DNA of 64,000 bases from NCBI RefSeq assembly GCF_900110215.1, contig NZ_FOCX01000003.1, forward strand, positions 186,001 to 250,000. Direction: 5' to 3'. The notes below the pieces were generated by a model. That model searched no databases, was not told the DNA's origin, and saw nothing but the letters and a program-made list of their open reading frames with translations. The position numbers were made by a program, and so were the translations under genes. This stretch comes from Halorientalis persicus (GTDB taxonomy: Archaea; Halobacteriota; Halobacteria; Halobacteriales; Haloarculaceae). Positions 6,952 through 45,634 of the stretch are shown here, piece after piece. Position 1 is the first letter of the stretch; every line of letters begins with the position of its first letter.

Positions 6952-7500
6952 GTGAGGATTCCCCGGTCGTCGCGTGCTGTCACCCCCGTCGTCTCGAACG
7001 TCCTGCTGGTGGCGACAGTGGTGGTTCTCGCCGCGACGATTTCTGTTCTCGCGCTTGGATTCACCGAAGAAACGACCGAAACGGGGCCCGTCGTTGGCGA
7101 GTCAAGCGGAAATCTCGTCACACAAGAAGGGTATGATGGTGGTATTGTCCGACTCAATCATATCGCAGGCGATACGCTCACGGTATCGAATCTCGAAATC
7201 GTTGTTGACGCACAAGACGCCTGTGACAAAACCGGACGGTTAGTGAATCTACCGGCAAGTGGTGGTGACCCAGTACCGACGAGTAAGTTCGTTCGCGGTG
7301 ACGACGTGTTCGATAACTCATACAACTCAGTGGGCGGGCCGATCGGTGAGGCACGTGGAGAGTGGGAAGCGGGTGAAACGGCAACGTTCCGTTTAGCCAA
7401 GAGCGAGTGTCAACTCGATAACGGCGATGAAATAATAGTTCGCGTCGTCCACACCCCGACGAACTCGGTCGTAATCAAAGAGACGCTGACCGCGACGTAG
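6952..7500 (+). CDS. Type IV pilin-like protein
   Basis: A 182-residue protein with the haloarchaeal pilin N-terminal signature: a short basic leader (RIPRSSRAVTP), then a hydrophobic helix VVSNVLLVATVVVLAATI. In this family a prepilin peptidase (PibD) cleaves just before the hydrophobic helix, and the helix packs into the filament. The remainder is a beta-rich extracellular domain with two Cys (~residues 89 and 147) that could pair. The start is GTG. The gene is noticeably more AT-rich than its neighbours, as often seen for surface genes. Confidence 0.82.
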   Translation: MRIPRSSRAVTPVVSNVLLVATVVVLAATISVLALGFTEETTETGPVVGESSGNLVTQEGYDGGIVRLNHIAGDTLTVSNLEIVVDAQDACDKTGRLVNLPASGGDPVPTSKFVRGDDVFDNSYNSVGGPIGEARGEWEAGETATFRLAKSECQLDNGDEIIVRVVHTPTNSVVIKETLTAT

Positions 7501-7654
7501 TCGATCAGAGATACCGGAGTGTCGGACGATGTCGCCCATGATTGCCGAGTCATCACTCTGCCAGCGGCCGGTCTCGGGGTCCCCGTGGTCCGACGTCCCT
7601 GCGGTCGTGCCGTGTCCATCGCTTGTCTCTCCCGGTACGACGGGACCGATTTGC

Positions 7655-7660
7655 CTTTAG
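7655..7660 (+). promoter_or_regulatory. TATA-like box of ileS
   Basis: CTTTAG centred about 27 nt upstream of ATG 7684. It supports that start over upstream in-frame codons and implies a leaderless mRNA. Confidence 0.55.
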
Positions 7661-7683
7661 TCCCGGCACCGAATTGGGCTCAC

Positions 7684-10600
7684 ATGAGCAGGTTCGAGCC
7701 GGTCGAGGACCAGTACGAGCCCCACGACCTCGAAGACGAGGTCTTCGAGTACTGGGACGCGGTCGACGCCTACGAACGGACGAAAGAACACCGGGCCGAC
7801 GGCGAGACCTACTTCTTCGTCGACGGGCCGCCCTACACCTCCGGGTCGGCCCACATGGGCACCACCTGGAACAAGACCCTGAAGGACTGTTACATCCGCT
7901 ATCTCCGGATGTGCGGGTACGACGTGACCGACCGCCCGGGCTACGATATGCACGGGCTCCCCATCGAGACGAAAGTCGAGGAGAAACTCGGCTTCGAGAA
8001 CAAGAAAGACATCGAGGAGTTCGGCGAGCAGAACTTCATCGACGAGTGCAAGGACTTCGCCGAGGAACAGCTGGAGGGCCTGCAGGAGGACTTCAAGTCC
8101 TTCGGCGTCTGGATGGACTGGGACGATCCCTACAAGACGGTGCGGCCGGAGTACATGGAAGCCGCGTGGTGGGGCTTCGAGCAGGCCCACGAGCGCGGGC
8201 TGGTCGAACAGGGGAAACGCTCGATCAACCAGTGTCCCCGGTGTGAGACCGCCATCGCCAACAACGAGGTCGAGTACCACCAGGTCGGCAAACCCTCGAT
8301 TTACGTCAAATTCCCCCTGGCCGACCGGGAGGGCTCGCTGGTCATCTGGACCACGACGCCCTGGACCATCGTCGCCAACACCTTCGTCGCGGTCGACGGC
8401 GACCTCGACTACGTCGGCGTCGACGCCGAGAAAGGCGGCGAGACCGAGCGCCTCTACGTCGCCAAAGAGTGCGTCGAGGACGTGCTGAAGGCCGGCCGCT
8501 ACGACGACTACGAGGTCGTCGAGCAACTCGACGGCGAGGAGATGGTCGGCTGGGCGTACGACCACCCACTCGCCGAGCAGGTCCCCGACCACGCCCAGGC
8601 CGAGGACAGTCAGCAGGTCTACACCGCCGACTACGTGGAAGCGGACCGCACAGGGCTAGTCCACTCCGCACCCGGGCACGGTGAGGAGGACTTCGAGCGC
8701 GGGCAGGAACTCGATCTGGAGATCTTCTGTCCGGTCGGCAACGACGGCGTCTACACCGACGCCGCCGGCAAGTACGAGGGCCAGTTCGTCCGGGACGCCA
8801 ACGACGACGTGATCGCCGACCTCGACGCGGGCGGCCATCTCCTGTCGAGCGAACAGGGTCACTCCGTCCGAGAGGGGCAGTGTTGGCGGTGTGACACGGA
8901 CATCGTTCGCCTCGTCACCGACCAGTGGTTCATCACGGTCACCGACATCAAAGACGAACTGCTCGACAACATCGAGGACAGCGAGTGGTACCCCCAGAGC
9001 GCCCGGGACAACCGCTTCCGGGACTTCGTGGCGGACTCGCCGGACTGGAACGTCTCCCGCCAGCGCTACTGGGGCATCCCGATCCCGATCTGGACTCCTG
9101 AGGGTGACGAGTGGAGCGGCGACATGGACGACGCCATCGTGATCGGGACCCGCGAGGAACTGGCCGAACGCGTCGATCAGGACATCGACCCTACCGAGGT
9201 GGACCTCCACAAGGGCACCGTCGACGACCTGACGATCACCGAGGACGGCCGGACGTACACCCGCGTCGGCGACGTGTTCGACGTGTGGCTGGACTCCTCG
9301 GTCGCCACGTGGGGCACGCTGAACTACCCCGAGGAGGACGATCGATTCGACGAGCTGTGGCCGGCCGACCTCATCATGGAGGCCCACGATCAGACGCGGG
9401 GCTGGTTCTGGTCGCAACTCGGTATGGGGACCGCCGCGCTGGGCGAAGTCCCCTACGACCAGGTGCTGATGCACGGCTGGGCGCTGGACTCGGACGGCCG
9501 GAAGATGTCCAAGTCGATCGGCAACATCGTCGAACCCGGCGAGGCCATCGAGCGCCACGGTCGGGACCCGATGCGCCTGTTCCTGCTCTCCCAGACGCCA
9601 CAGGAGGACGACATGAAGTTCTCCTGGGAGGAGATGGCCGAGATGCAACGCCGGCTCAACATCCTCTGGAACGTCTTCCGGTTCCCGCTGCCGTATATGC
9701 GGATGGACGAGTTCGACCCCGAGGAGGTGGACCTCACCGAGGCCGAGACGGAACTCGTCGACGAGTGGGTCCTCTCCCGGCTTCAAACTGTGGAGGAGAC
9801 CATGACCGAGCACTTCGAGAACTTCGAGCAGGACAAGGCCCTCGACGCACTGCTCTCGTTCGTCGTCGAGGACGTGTCCCGCTTCTACGTGCAGGTCGTC
9901 CGCGAGCGGATGTGGGCGGAAGGCGACAACCCCTCCAAACAGGCCGCCTACGCCACGCTCTACCACGTGCTGGAGGAGACGGTCGCGCTGATCGCACCCT
10001 TCGCGCCCTTCGTCGCCGAGGAAATCTACGGCAACCTCACCGGCGACGCGGGGTACGACACCGTCCATATGTGCGACTGGCCGGAACCCGACGCGTTCTG
10101 GCACGATTCCGACCTAGAGAGCGAGGTCGAGGTCGCACGCGCCGTCGAGGAGGCCGGCTCGAACGCCCGCCAGCAGGCCGAGCGGAGCCTCCGCTGGCCG
10201 ATCACGCGAGTCGTCGTCGCGGCCGACGACGAGACAACCGCGGCCGCGGTCGAGAGCCAGCGCGACCTGCTGACCGAGCGACTCAACGCCCGGAACCTGG
10301 AACTGATCGAACCCGACGAAGACTGGGGCGAACTGTCCTACGCCGCCGAGGCCGACATGAGCCTGCTCGGGCCGGAGTTCGGCGACGACGCCGGCCGCGT
10401 CATGAACGCTATGAACGAGGCCAGCGTCGACGAGCCGACCGTCGATGCCCTCGAAGCCGCCGTCGCGGACGCGCTGGGCGAGTCCGTCGACCTGACCGAG
10501 GAGATGGTCGAGTTCGTCACGCAGACGCCCGACGACGTGACCGGCGTCGCCTTCGACGTGGACGGGACGGAGTTGGGTGTGGTCTACATCGACGCGAGCC

Positions 10601-36562: not shown

Positions 36563-37015
36563 ATGTCCCGCTCAGTGGACCAGTCCGCCGACACAGAGGA
36601 GACCGTGTACGAGAAGTACGTCCTGAACGTCCGCGTCGTCGAAGTGACCGACGGCGACGACACACGCTACCGCTTCGAAGCGCCGGATCACTGCGGCAAG
36701 ACGTTCGAGGACCCGGAGATGGCGACGCTGTACGCCGACGTGTACTTCGACGTGAACGGCTTCGTCGAGTCGGAGACGGGCGAGCGAGGCGTCCCGCCGA
36801 AGATCATCCCGGCGGGGCGGGACACGATGGTGGCGTATATGCGGACGCTCCCCGGTGCGGACGAGGACTGGGTGAGCTGTTACTTCGCCGAGCGACCCGA
36901 CAAGATCAAGCGGCTCATCAGGAACGTCCGGGCGCGGGCGGAGAAGGTCCGGGCCGGCGTCGTCGAACAGGACGTGGCGGACCGGCACGGCTCGCGCCAG
37001 AACGTCGAGGGCTAG
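36563..37015 (+). CDS. Haloarchaeal conserved-looking protein, unknown
   Basis: A 150-residue soluble protein. The central part (YVLNVRVVEVTDGDDTRYRFEAP ... FEDPEMATLYADVYFDVNGF) is alpha/beta; the C-terminus is basic and helical (DKIKRLIRNVRARAEKVRAG). One Cys (~46) and one further Cys (~114). No family is recognised. It is probably a monocistronic gene with its own TATA-like box about 33 nt upstream. Confidence 0.65.
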   Translation: MSRSVDQSADTEETVYEKYVLNVRVVEVTDGDDTRYRFEAPDHCGKTFEDPEMATLYADVYFDVNGFVESETGERGVPPKIIPAGRDTMVAYMRTLPGADEDWVSCYFAERPDKIKRLIRNVRARAEKVRAGVVEQDVADRHGSRQNVEG

Positions 37016-37229: not shown

Positions 37230-39887
37230 ATGGTGGATCTCAATCGGCGAAACCTGATGAAATCGTCAGTCGCTGCCGCACTGGGGGCCAGTGTGGTGGG
37301 AATTGCCAGCGGTTCAGAGACGGAGATACCGGAGAGCGATACGTCCAGTGCGCCGAGCGTGGTCGGCGATATCAAGCGCTTTTCCACGACGGCCTACGGC
37401 GCCGAGGTCACGGGTCCGTTCGTCTTCGAGAACGGCGGCCTGCTGTACAGCCTCCAGCACCCGAGCGGCGACAACCCGGAACCGTTCGACCGGGCCGGTG
37501 TCGGCTACTTCAGCGGCTTCACCTTCGAGCTGGACGGCGACAACGACGACTTCGAGGAAGTTCCGGTCCCGACCTCGGATTCGGCCCAGGGGAAAGTCCG
37601 CTCGGCCAACCACGAGTACGTGTTGCTCGGCCAGGGTCGCGAGCCGATCAACGGCGGGAGCGAACGCCTCGGCGTGACCCAGACGCCCGACGGTAACGAC
37701 ATCTCGCTCGACAACTTCGAGGGCACTCAGTACGGCGGTGCCGCGACGAACCCGGACTGCAACCAGTTCGTCCCCACGGACGACGCGGGGACCGAGGGTT
37801 ACCTGTTCACAAACTGGGAGAACAGCCCGGGGAACGTCAGCCGCATCCCGATCAGCATGACCGAGGACGGCGAGTGGGAGGCCGACCTGGAGAACGCGAT
37901 CAACCTTGCCAACACGGAACCGCTCCGGGAACTCGGCGGGACCCGGATCAACTGCTACGGCGATCTCAGCCCCTGGGACACGATGATCTCCTCCGAGGAG
38001 AACTACGCACATCCCCGCGTCTCCCTGACCAACACGGTCGGCGACATCGTCGACGCCGGCTCCGGCGAGGGCATGATCGGCGGCTGCCAGTTCTGGAACC
38101 GACCGAACCCCAGCGACTGCACGGAGAACCTCGACTTCTCCCCACAGGGCTACTGGGCGCTCAGCGGCGTCGAGTTCCTGGCGTACTATCTCGGTGCCGA
38201 CCGGATCGACCAGGGCAGTGACGCCAACACGACCGAGCCGATCTCGGACGTCTACCCGAACCCCTATCGGTACGGCTACCACGTCGACTTCCGCGAGCCG
38301 ACCGCCGACCCGCCCCAGCCCGTCAAGTACTACGTCATGGGCCGCGCCGCGTGGGAAGCCCCCAACATTCAGGCCGACCGCAAGACGGCCTACGGGCTCT
38401 CGGACGGCGACAACAAGGGCATCTACAAGTTCGTCGCCGACGAGGAGATCGACAGTTACGACGACCCGATGGACATCGAGGGCACGCTGTACGCCCCGAA
38501 GATCACGAACGACGCGGCCTCGGCCGAGGACGCAGGCGTTCGCAACAACCCCGCCGAAACCGACCTCGTGATCGACTGGCTCCCGCTCGGGCACGCCAGC
38601 CAGCGCGAGTGCGAGGCGTGGATCGCCGAGTACGACGACGTGACCCAGGTCGACTACCTCGAAGCCCACACCGAAAGCTGGAGCGAGGGCGACGAGGTCA
38701 CCGACGAGGTCCTGGCCGAAGCCGACCGGACCGTCGTCGAAGACGGCAACCAAAACTACATCACGAACGAGGAGATCGTCGAGTGGGCCCGTCAGTACGA
38801 GGAGAACGGCTACGACGGCGTCGACGAGGAGCTCCGGAGAGTGCCCTTCCTGGAGACTCGCGCGGCCGCCAAGGAGATCGGGGCGTCGATCGAGTTCAAC
38901 AAGGCCGAAGGCGTCGACAGCCGCGACGGTGCCGGCCCCGGCGAGTTCGTCTACTTCGGCATCTCGGAGTTCAACGACGCCCTGGCCGACGAAGAGGGCG
39001 ACATCCAGCTCGACCGCATCGACGGCGGCATCATCTTCCGCGGCGAACTGGAGCAGGATTACAACGTCTCCCGGCTCGAACCCGTCATCGTCGGTCCCGA
39101 CTTCGTCCCGAGCGACCGGCAGGCAGACGGCGACGACGGCGTGGCCAACATCGACAACGTCTACGTGATGGACGACGGCCGCGTCATCTGCTGTGAGGAC
39201 GGCTTCAAGGCAGGTCCCGCGAACTTCCCCAACGACGGGCTCTACGTCTACCAGCCGCCGGTCGACGTGGACGTCGAGTCGCTCGCCATCGCCAACGGCG
39301 GCTCGGGCGAGGCCGACCTGACCGTGTCCTCGCTGCCGAACGGCTTCTCGGGCGCCCGCGTCACCGTCTCGACCAGCGACGACGGCGTCGCCGAGTTCAC
39401 GGGCGCGAGCTACGACGACGCGCTCGGCATGACCGCCGACCCCAAGGTGGCCGCGGACGGCCAGTCGGTCGAACTCCGCGTCGCGGACCTCGACGGCGAG
39501 ATCCAGCCCGGCGCACAGAACGTCACGCTCGGGACGCTCGAACTCGACGCCGACGGCACCGGCACCACCGACCTCGAAGTGACCGTCCACGACATAGACG
39601 ACGAGGGAGGGAGCGAGATCGACGTGCAGGAACGGATGGGGATGGTCGTCACCGGCCCGCCCGCCATCGGCGGCGGCCCCGCCGGCGGGCAGGCCCCGAC
39701 CGACCCCGACGGCGACGGCCTGTACGAGGACGTCAACGGGAACGGTCGCATGGACTACGCCGACATCGAACTCCTGTTCGAGAACCTCGACGACGAGTCC
39801 GTGACGATGAACGTCGAGGCCTACGACTTCAACGAGAACGGCCAGATCGACTACGACGACGTGGTCGAACTGTACGAGGAACAGTAA
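37230..39887 (+). CDS. PhoX/DUF839-like secreted protein with cohesin-like and dockerin modules
   Basis: An 885-residue protein in four parts. Residues 1-35 are a Tat-type signal (NRRNLMKSSVAAALGAS). Residues ~45-670 are a PhoX/DUF839-like domain, with NHEYVLLGQG near 127 and FTNWENSPGNVSRIPIS near 192; PhoX enzymes are calcium/iron alkaline phosphatases. Residues ~677-795 form a cohesin-like beta domain (GVAEFTGASYDDALGMTADP). Residues 825-885 form a two-repeat dockerin with calcium-loop patterns DVNGNGRMDYADIE and DFNENGQIDYDDVV. The gene 37 nt downstream encodes a surface-anchored protein with the same cohesin-like module, so anchoring of this enzyme through its dockerin is plausible. Phosphatase activity is inferred. 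Confidence 0.85.
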   Translation: MVDLNRRNLMKSSVAAALGASVVGIASGSETEIPESDTSSAPSVVGDIKRFSTTAYGAEVTGPFVFENGGLLYSLQHPSGDNPEPFDRAGVGYFSGFTFELDGDNDDFEEVPVPTSDSAQGKVRSANHEYVLLGQGREPINGGSERLGVTQTPDGNDISLDNFEGTQYGGAATNPDCNQFVPTDDAGTEGYLFTNWENSPGNVSRIPISMTEDGEWEADLENAINLANTEPLRELGGTRINCYGDLSPWDTMISSEENYAHPRVSLTNTVGDIVDAGSGEGMIGGCQFWNRPNPSDCTENLDFSPQGYWALSGVEFLAYYLGADRIDQGSDANTTEPISDVYPNPYRYGYHVDFREPTADPPQPVKYYVMGRAAWEAPNIQADRKTAYGLSDGDNKGIYKFVADEEIDSYDDPMDIEGTLYAPKITNDAASAEDAGVRNNPAETDLVIDWLPLGHASQRECEAWIAEYDDVTQVDYLEAHTESWSEGDEVTDEVLAEADRTVVEDGNQNYITNEEIVEWARQYEENGYDGVDEELRRVPFLETRAAAKEIGASIEFNKAEGVDSRDGAGPGEFVYFGISEFNDALADEEGDIQLDRIDGGIIFRGELEQDYNVSRLEPVIVGPDFVPSDRQADGDDGVANIDNVYVMDDGRVICCEDGFKAGPANFPNDGLYVYQPPVDVDVESLAIANGGSGEADLTVSSLPNGFSGARVTVSTSDDGVAEFTGASYDDALGMTADPKVAADGQSVELRVADLDGEIQPGAQNVTLGTLELDADGTGTTDLEVTVHDIDDEGGSEIDVQERMGMVVTGPPAIGGGPAGGQAPTDPDGDGLYEDVNGNGRMDYADIELLFENLDDESVTMNVEAYDFNENGQIDYDDVVELYEEQ

Positions 39888-39924
39888 GCCGACCGACTCC
39901 CGACACTCTCTCCCCCCGACAGCC

Positions 39925-40596
39925 ATGACACGAACCCAGACGGTCGCCGCCCTCGGACTCCTCGCTGGCCTGCTGCTGGTCGGCGGGGTCGGGACGGCGA
40001 CGGCCGACGACGGCGCACAGCTGACCGTCACGAACGCGACGGTCGAGGAAAACGAGACGAGCACGCTCCGACTCGCGCTCTCGCGCGCCCCGTCTGGGCT
40101 GTCGGGCTACGAGGTGACCCTCGAACTCTCCGAGTCGGGCGTCGCCGAGATCACGAACGCCAGCTATCCGGACTCGTTCCAGCTGACGACCGAGCCCGAG
40201 ATCGTCGGCGACGGACAACGCGTGACGCTAGAAGCCGCCGTGACCGACACGCCACCCGGCGCGACGAACGTCACGCTGGCGACCGTCGAGGTCGGAGGCA
40301 CAGGCGGCGGGACCACCGCCGTCCGTGTCACCGACGCACAGGTCGACGCCGACAACGGTAGCCGGGTCGCGCCCGCGTCCCGTTCCGGGTCGGTCGCCGT
40401 GGAACCGCTGTCCAACGACCGTGGTGGGGGCTCCGTCGGCGGTTCCGTGACCGACGGCGCGTCGGACAACCCGGCCGACGACCCGGGATCGGGTGACTCT
40501 CCCTCCCCGACCGGGGCGACCGGTCCCGGCTTCGGTGTGATCGTCGCGCTCACGGCACTGCTGGCCGTGGCGCTGCTGGCTCACCGGCGACGCTGA
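39925..40596 (+). CDS. Surface-anchored cohesin-like protein (PGF-CTERM)
   Basis: A 223-residue protein: signal peptide (1-27, ending TATA-DD), one cohesin-like domain (~30-140; GVAEITNASYPDSFQLTTEP, ATNVTLATVEVGGTG), a Gly/Ser/Asp/Pro linker, and a PGF-CTERM tail (TGPGFG, hydrophobic stretch, HRRR) that archaeosortase cleaves and attaches to lipid. The domain aligns closely with residues ~690-790 of the upstream PhoX-like protein. Together they look like a scaffold-enzyme pair. Expressed as an operon with the upstream gene (37-nt gap). Confidence 0.83.
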   Translation: MTRTQTVAALGLLAGLLLVGGVGTATADDGAQLTVTNATVEENETSTLRLALSRAPSGLSGYEVTLELSESGVAEITNASYPDSFQLTTEPEIVGDGQRVTLEAAVTDTPPGATNVTLATVEVGGTGGGTTAVRVTDAQVDADNGSRVAPASRSGSVAVEPLSNDRGGGSVGGSVTDGASDNPADDPGSGDSPSPTGATGPGFGVIVALTALLAVALLAHRRR

Positions 40597-43837: not shown

Positions 43838-45634
43838 ATGTTCCGTCGACTGGTCCTTGCGGGGGTAGTGGTGGCAGTGATTGGGAGTGTGGGTCTGGCT
43901 GTCCAGCCAGCGGCCGCGACCAGCACGAGTGCGCAGACAGCGGACAACGGGACGACCATGGACGTGCAATTCGACCGCGATGCGATTCACGTCGGTGACG
44001 GGACCGGTGTGCAGGCACACATGGAGGTCGATAATGTGTCGTCGGGAGCAGAGGTAGAGATAACGGCAGCGGGACTTTCAGAGGGGGCGCTTGCCGCGAT
44101 GATCGACGGCGACATGACCGCCAACGGCGTTCGGACGACGGTGCCGGCAAACGGCACGATCCCCGTTCATGGTCCGCCGTCATGTACAACCGGCGACTTC
44201 GAGTTCACCGTCCAGCGATCCGACACCGGCGCGACGGCGACGGCTCCGCTGACACTCACGATCTTGGGAGACCTCGACGTTCAGTTCGAGCGTGCGAACT
44301 ACTCCGGAACGCCCGGCAGTGTCGTCCCCGTCACGATCGACGCCGAGTGTGCAGACCTGAGAGTGGGGATCGCAGATCCGGACTCGGACTATCAGGTGTC
44401 GGTGGCAATCGACGACGACGACCGGAACCACACTCTCTGGATCGACACGGCCGAGCCGATGAACGCGAGTCAGCTGTTCACGGCCGAAATCGACGCGAAC
44501 ACCAGTGGGTACCGTCGATCCGGAACCCTCACGAAACTGAACGGAACGTATCGGCTGTTCGTCGGTTCCAGCCCCCGGACGCCGTTCACGGCCAACCTGA
44601 CCGTCACGCCGAACGGGACGCCACGACCGACGGCCGAGGACGCGCTCTCGGTCGAAGTGTACTCGGATCTGTTCGTCACGAACGACGACAGCCAGTCTCG
44701 GCCGTTCCCCTTCGGACTCCGGGACCTGAACTCGAACGTCCCGGTCACTGCCCACCTCCGGAATGCGACCGCCGACATCCCGTCAGCGACGTTCGCAGCG
44801 ATGGTTTCGAACGGTTCTATCCGGGAGGATCCACGAGTTCACCGGTTCGAGAACGGAACGGTGCCGCTTTTCATCCCGGCGGGAATGCGATGTCGGACTG
44901 GCGAGTTGACCGTCGCCTTCCAGCGTCTGGACACCGGCGCGACGGCGATGGCCGAGACGACTGCGGCCGCCAACGCCGCGGTCGGGGGGTCGCTCCACAG
45001 GAGAAACTACACCGTCGAGTCCGGTTCCGTCCTCCCTGTCACGCTCACGCGGGAGTGTCACGACCTGACGCTCGAACTCACCCGGACAGACTCTGAGGCG
45101 ACGGCGTCGATAGAACTCGGCACGAATCGCTCCGTGGAGCGCAACGAGACAGTGTGGTTCGACACCGGACGTGCCGGGACCGCGAGCGGACTGTTCCGGT
45201 CGGAGGTCGGCACGCCGACCCGCAACACCACGACGGATTTCTCGGACGGCGCGCTCCCGCTCGGAATCTACTCGCTCAGAACAATCTACAACGATCACGA
45301 GATAGATACCGCGACCCTGACCGTGACGAACGAGTCGGCCGATGGACCCCCGTCGGACTCGACGGACGGGTCGTCCGGAATCACGACACCGACGCCGAAC
45401 ACAATCGTCCCACCGCCGACCGAAACGTCCACCACCGAGCACACCACCGCCGACCGCCCGACGACCGACCCGCCGACCACGGGACCGCTCCCGACGGTCG
45501 CGATCACGGACTCTGCCACAGCGGTGGCGACGAGTTCGGAGACTGCCGGTACTGGTCCAGGCTTCGGCCCCGGTCTGGCACTGGTCGCGCTTGCGGCAGT
45601 GATAGTACTCGCACTGCGCGGTCCTGAGCGATGA
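43838..45634 (+). CDS. PGF-CTERM surface glycoprotein-like protein, tandem paralogue 1
   Basis: A 598-residue exported protein: signal peptide (1-28), two related beta-rich units of about 230-240 residues with TVQ(R/S)xDTGATA and (Y/N)(S/T)GTPGSVVPVTI/SGSVLPVTLTRECHDL blocks, a Thr/Pro-rich spacer (~495-565), and a PGF-CTERM tail (GTGPGFGPGLALVALAAVIVLAL, RGPER). Several NxS/T sites suggest N-glycosylation. The layout recalls haloarchaeal BGTF/S-layer-type surface proteins. A near-identical copy of its signal sequence starts the next gene. Confidence 0.8.
   Translation: MFRRLVLAGVVVAVIGSVGLAVQPAAATSTSAQTADNGTTMDVQFDRDAIHVGDGTGVQAHMEVDNVSSGAEVEITAAGLSEGALAAMIDGDMTANGVRTTVPANGTIPVHGPPSCTTGDFEFTVQRSDTGATATAPLTLTILGDLDVQFERANYSGTPGSVVPVTIDAECADLRVGIADPDSDYQVSVAIDDDDRNHTLWIDTAEPMNASQLFTAEIDANTSGYRRSGTLTKLNGTYRLFVGSSPRTPFTANLTVTPNGTPRPTAEDALSVEVYSDLFVTNDDSQSRPFPFGLRDLNSNVPVTAHLRNATADIPSATFAAMVSNGSIREDPRVHRFENGTVPLFIPAGMRCRTGELTVAFQRLDTGATAMAETTAAANAAVGGSLHRRNYTVESGSVLPVTLTRECHDLTLELTRTDSEATASIELGTNRSVERNETVWFDTGRAGTASGLFRSEVGTPTRNTTTDFSDGALPLGIYSLRTIYNDHEIDTATLTVTNESADGPPSDSTDGSSGITTPTPNTIVPPPTETSTTEHTTADRPTTDPPTTGPLPTVAITDSATAVATSSETAGTGPGFGPGLALVALAAVIVLALRGPER

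Follow-up and report, generated by a model that had tools for sequence, protein, structure and literature searches.

The window analysed here, a stretch of 64,000 nucleotides from Halorientalis persicus, carries a gene for a PhoX-type phosphatase that ends in a cohesin and a dockerin, followed by a gene for a small surface protein with a cohesin of its own, and we consider it probable that the dockerin of the enzyme docks on the cohesin of this anchor protein, displaying the phosphatase at the cell surface. That the enzyme is held there is probable because its tail and the anchor are gained and lost together across related species. The domains, the folds of the two cohesins, the conserved adjacency of the genes and their coupled gain and loss were all computed here.

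Both open reading frames were confirmed on the forward strand, the enzyme (P0001) at 37230..39887 and the anchor protein (P0002) at 39925..40596, with the lengths of 885 and 223 residues given in the earlier note. The enzyme is composed of a Tat signal, a PhoX domain, a cohesin and a type I dockerin, and the anchor protein of a signal peptide (proposed earlier, and seen by eye), one cohesin and a PGF-CTERM anchor. Only 37 nt separate the two genes. In relatives, order and strand are kept and the spacing ranges from about -4 to 137 nt. The proposed reading of the pair as an operon stands. Elsewhere in the window (43838-45634, +) lies a gene whose 598-aa product is a surface protein containing repeated beta domains and, by eye, a PGF-CTERM-like end; a Pfam scan gave no match for it.

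The N-terminus of the enzyme (MVDLNRRNLMKSSVAAALGAS..., 37230..37313, +) is a predicted Tat signal region, matching the TAT_signal profile below its cut-off (E 0.031) and harboring two arginines, R6 and R7, that are invariant in 22 orthologs. The PhoX alkaline phosphatase domain that follows (37314..39242, +) was matched by Pfam PhoX (PF05787, E 1.9e-18, residues 223-660) and, using a profile of its orthologs, by the PhoX structures in the PDB (3zwu/4amf, E 1e-9), which bears out, at the level of sequence, the proposed phosphatase cargo. Residues C242, E376 and D392, invariant across all orthologs compared, align with C179, E273 and D292 of the Pseudomonas fluorescens PhoX, which we take to be metal ligands; the remaining ligands fall outside the aligned stretch. 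Two tail-less PhoX proteins (L139 and L149) end in a single EF-hand-like loop with a D-D-D-G pattern.

At the other end of the enzyme, residues 823-885 (39696..39884, +) form a type I dockerin, recognised by Dockerin_1 (PF00404) over residues 832-879 with an E-value of 2.7e-5 and 24.7 bits, above the curated cut-off of 22.9, and modelled with helices. Its two calcium loops, DVNGNGRMDYAD (residues 834-845, 39729..39764, +; D834-V-N-G-N-G-R-M-D842-Y-A-D845) and DFNENGQIDYDD (residues 866-877, 39825..39860, +; D866-F-N-E-N-G-Q-I-D874-Y-D-D877), are complete, canonical and EF-hand-like, with D or N at positions 1, 3, 5, 9 and 12, and the aspartates D834, D842, D845, D866, D874 and D877 are unchanged in 22 orthologs. 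Thus, the two-repeat dockerin that had been placed at 825-885 was recovered by the profile search, calcium loops included. Directly before loop 1, at 39702-39728, lies a conserved DPDGDGxYE stretch that resembles a third calcium half-loop, with D825, D827, D829 and E833 invariant.

Recognising the two cohesins, those of the enzyme (residues 676-810, 39255..39659, +) and of the anchor protein (residues about 32-160, 40018..40404, +), required profiles and predicted folds in addition to their mutual alignment. The two domains do align, as the earlier note had it, and share 43% identity across 114 aa (E 4e-22). Neither was matched by Pfam Cohesin in a single-sequence scan, 8 of 60 relatives were (best E 1.7e-6), and a PF00963 search of the window's own genome returned only weak, unrelated matches. 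When a profile of the cohesins was compared with PDB sequences, the best match was a cohesin of ScaC (E 0.004). AlphaFold2 modelled the anchor domain with a pLDDT of 90 and a pTM of 0.82, and the enzyme tail, with cohesin and dockerin in one chain, with a pLDDT of 86.6 and a pTM of 0.67, a value uninformative on contact between cohesin and dockerin. Both predicted structures contain the jelly-roll beta sandwich of cohesins, and the leading PDB matches in Foldseek were cohesins for each (best E 3.5e-9 and 4.7e-10), with Z scores of 14-16 against type I cohesins and about 11 against type II. Because their leading structural matches are cohesins, and type I scores exceed type II scores, both domains are, by predicted fold, type I-like cohesins. 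Rather than an unrelated beta fold, each model thus resembles solved cohesins (Z about 15-16), and the domain proposed at ~677-795 of the enzyme is kept as a cohesin with its boundaries moved to about 676-810.

Compared across species, the cohesins of enzymes and of anchors separate into two groups, with mean identities of 48% and 49% within and 32% between them, a pattern that, on sequence grounds, marks an old duplication of the cohesin, retained in both roles. That both groups persist speaks against the enzyme's cohesin being a spare duplicate of that of the anchor. The window's genome holds three cohesins of this family, those of the enzyme, of the anchor protein and of a 5'-nucleotidase.

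The proposed PGF-CTERM sorting signal was readily identified at residues 196-223 of the anchor protein (40510..40593, +), with E-values of 1.2e-10 for TIGR04126 (40.8 bits, cut-off 24.5) and 2.7e-7 for PF18204, and it comprises a C-terminal PGF motif, a hydrophobic stretch and a basic end. Membrane attachment is established for PGF-CTERM proteins. The membrane segment at the C-terminus of the anchor escaped recognition as PGF-CTERM in several genera (no match in L085 and L094).

The survey of relatives provided the main evidence that tail and anchor belong together. Relatives of the anchor protein were found in many of the 145 haloarchaeal genomes searched, the best of them adjoining a frame of 880-950 residues, and nearly all of these loci read PhoX-cohesin-dockerin followed by the cohesin anchor. 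The pair is kept in most tail-bearing relatives sampled, which rules out that it is a one-off of the window's genome. A scan of named genomes contributed 80 PhoX loci, and many PhoX proteins stop directly after the PhoX domain, thus providing a natural control. Among 82 related haloarchaeal PhoX proteins, 35 have both a dockerin and an adjacent anchor, 7 a dockerin only and 40 neither, while an anchor beside a PhoX lacking the dockerin was found in none (plain Fisher test, 1.6e-16). On the PhoX tree, a quick build under LG+G4, well-supported (starred) branches carry at least 8 changes of the tail. Across 8 independent pairs, the anchor followed the tail in 7.1 on average and moved against it in none (sign test, p about 0.016), so mere co-inheritance by descent was rejected. 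In this scoring, the upstream tandem copy of Haloterrigena salina was counted as tail-only, though an anchor follows its twin. The PhoX of Haloarcula pellucida has neither dockerin nor anchor and retains a divergent cohesin. At the level of whole genomes, 60 of the 145 encode both cohesin and dockerin, 4 cohesin only, 7 dockerin only and 74 neither, a co-occurrence inflated by the frequent presence of both domains in one protein.

A clade of the Halovenus type offers a further view of the tail, its PhoX proteins being tail-less and ending in a PGF-CTERM-like anchor of their own, as would be expected if the tail serves surface attachment. One of these ends (L151) falls slightly below the TIGR04126 cut-off (E 3.6e-5, 23.3 bits against 24.5), and two others (L136 and L153) are PGF-CTERM-like by eye only.

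Directly upstream of the enzyme, at 36563..37015 (+), lies a gene for an unnamed 150-aa protein that adjoins PhoX in 78 of 78 related loci, tail-bearing and tail-less alike. Strong homologs occur in exactly 51 of the 145 genomes, the same ones that encode the long-form PhoX (51/51). No Pfam or NCBIfam family over cut-off and no PDB match was found for this protein, and no signal peptide was seen by eye; a link to chlorite dismutase (E 0.099, one member only) was rejected as chance. Our guess is that it acts as a PhoX maturation factor, in folding, metal loading or Tat export.

From these data we infer Tat export, anchoring, calcium-dependent binding, a choice of partner and catalytic activity, which would combine as follows. 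The phosphatase would be exported via Tat, pre-folded with its metals, and the anchor protein by its own signal peptide, with the PGF-CTERM end of the latter fixing it in the membrane. The dockerin, once loaded with calcium, would dock on the anchor cohesin and keep the phosphatase at the surface, where it would free phosphate from organic phosphate; calcium-dependent docking is established for cohesin-dockerin pairs. The enzyme's own cohesin would serve as a second socket, in which another enzyme with a dockerin tail would probably dock, candidate guests being a second PhoX copy or the tail-bearing 5'-nucleotidase of this genome. Docking on the anchor, which the earlier note had suggested, thus draws support from the coupled gain and loss and from the clade with a PGF-CTERM-like fusion.

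The same note had raised the option that the enzyme chains with itself, and self-docking as the main function, whether in chains or with the dockerin folded onto its own cohesin in a closed form, strikes us as rather unlikely; the anchor would then merely end or seed a chain. Every intact dockerin-tailed PhoX that we saw carries its own cohesin, and two tandem tail-bearing PhoX genes each are found in Haloterrigena salina (L131) and in a second genome (G118, loci L061 and L192), as self-docking would have it. Moreover, six tail-bearing PhoX genes from five genera (Halocatena, Halegenticoccus with two, Halogranum, Halalkalicoccus and Halomarina) have both halves, no adjoining anchor and no cohesin elsewhere in their genomes, so there the tail must serve another use; the enzyme being the sole known candidate partner, chaining or self-docking is possible in these species. 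However, self-docking leaves unexplained why, of the 8 independent comparisons, about 7 show anchor and tail coming and going together, and why enzyme and anchor cohesins stay separate groups. In G118, the tandem genes of L192 are followed by an anchor gene split over two frames (7200-8014).

We give still less credence to a purely structural tail, in which the domains would be calcium-stabilised spacers or substrate-binding appendages and would not bind each other. The dockerin profile does match general EF-hand proteins in the PDB, a literature search turned up no binding measurements on haloarchaeal pairs, and recent papers on haloarchaeal enzymes take the dockerin as substrate-binding, cohesins going unmentioned (PMC10963439, PMC13260240). 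Yet the dockerin exceeds its own curated cut-off, the closest folds are by far those of cohesins, and a separate gene with a matching domain is gained and lost along with the tail. Least probable of all, in our view, is that the dockerin binds a cohesin elsewhere, on an S-layer protein, a scaffoldin or another cell, and that the adjacent anchor displays some other cargo. Some haloarchaea are indeed rich in dockerins and have several cohesin proteins, at least 41 dockerins in both G002 and G104 with 16 and 12 cohesins, respectively, but the window's genome has just three cohesins of this family. Docking on the adjacent anchor remains the reading that we prefer.

The same cohesin-dockerin tail was also found on other cargoes. 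In the window's genome it is carried by the 5'-nucleotidase (L062 4212-7409, G000:C22, +), near which no anchor was found, and by a 5'-nucleotidase of G138. It is further present on PhoD phosphatases in at least 5 genomes (L179-L183, in G135, G138, G102, G051 and G130) and on a nuclease that adjoins an anchor of its own. Because these tail-bearing cargoes share phosphorus release, their sequences suggest one docking code common to several phosphatases. A more tentative extension, which we would not yet favor, is a 'phosphatasome', in which PhoX, PhoD, 5'-nucleotidase and nuclease would be assembled on the surface through a shared cohesin-dockerin code, each bearing a plug and a socket, docking on a membrane cohesin and potentially chaining with the others. 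The two-gene design, a cargo with cohesin and dockerin followed by a cohesin protein, was also seen in several further families of the phylum (L195, L196, L198, L199 and L200), with differing cargoes that include a calcineurin-like phosphoesterase.

The search further brought up scaffoldin-like haloarchaeal proteins (L080 3-3521, -; L077 1819-4266, -; L184 10190-12445, -; L185 3851-5845, +; L194 2362-5178, -) with two to five or more cohesins and, where scanned, fn3, PKD and CBM5/12 domains. GH5 enzymes with dockerins are encoded beside or near them, and together they probably constitute a haloarchaeal cellulosome; in the papers found on these species, cohesins are not mentioned.

Where archaea use cohesins and dockerins for something other than degrading cellulose, cargo and purpose have so far been unclear, and such non-cellulosomal modules have been called an enigmatic vestige (the title of Bayer 1999, as quoted in PMC9012536). 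In the present pair, cargo, anchor and the fate that they share on the tree can all be seen, and in cultivated species, which makes the question testable. If our reading is true, the dockerins of haloarchaeal enzymes would be docking parts, contrary to their substrate-binding interpretation, a plug-and-socket of the kind used by bacterial cellulose-degrading machines would here hold a phosphatase, and a salt-stable surface-display system would be on offer. A literature search, with Bayer 1999 and Peer 2009 outside the comparison, found no paper that links PhoX or PhoD to a dockerin in this sense or describes a phosphatase as the cargo.

Several known systems resemble the window pair in part. 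The Pseudomonas fluorescens PhoX (3zwu) belongs to the same catalytic family and presumably shares the conserved C, E and D ligands, but lacks the cohesin and dockerin that are fused here to the C-terminus, with an anchor gene next to it. The pair is not a cellulosome, although its anchor would work like the anchoring cohesin of one. With the clostridial cellulosome the pair shares a type I-like cohesin, a dockerin with duplicated calcium loops and a surface-anchored cohesin (cf. OlpA and OlpC), whereas it has one cohesin per protein and a phosphatase as cargo, and includes no multi-cohesin scaffoldin, carbohydrate-binding module or glycoside hydrolase. ANME archaea likewise have surface proteins with cohesin and dockerin, with up to five cohesins per protein; the passages of PMC9012536 on these proteins give ABC-transporter binding proteins and S-layer proteins as the usual cargoes and mention no phosphatase. 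The closest known system is that of the non-cellulosomal genes AF2375/AF2376 of Archaeoglobus fulgidus, likewise archaeal and unconnected to cellulose. By Bayer's 1999 description, this species reportedly has a protein with cohesin and dockerin and a neighbour with a cohesin, a layout that the window pair fits. The comparison made here was with the structure of the A. fulgidus cohesin (2xdh), which both window domains match (Foldseek E 4.7e-8 and 5.1e-9, Z 15.0 and 15.6). Unlike the A. fulgidus genes, the pair described here has a named cargo, PhoX, a PGF-CTERM anchor on the partner, and a recurrence across species in which tail and anchor are gained and lost together.
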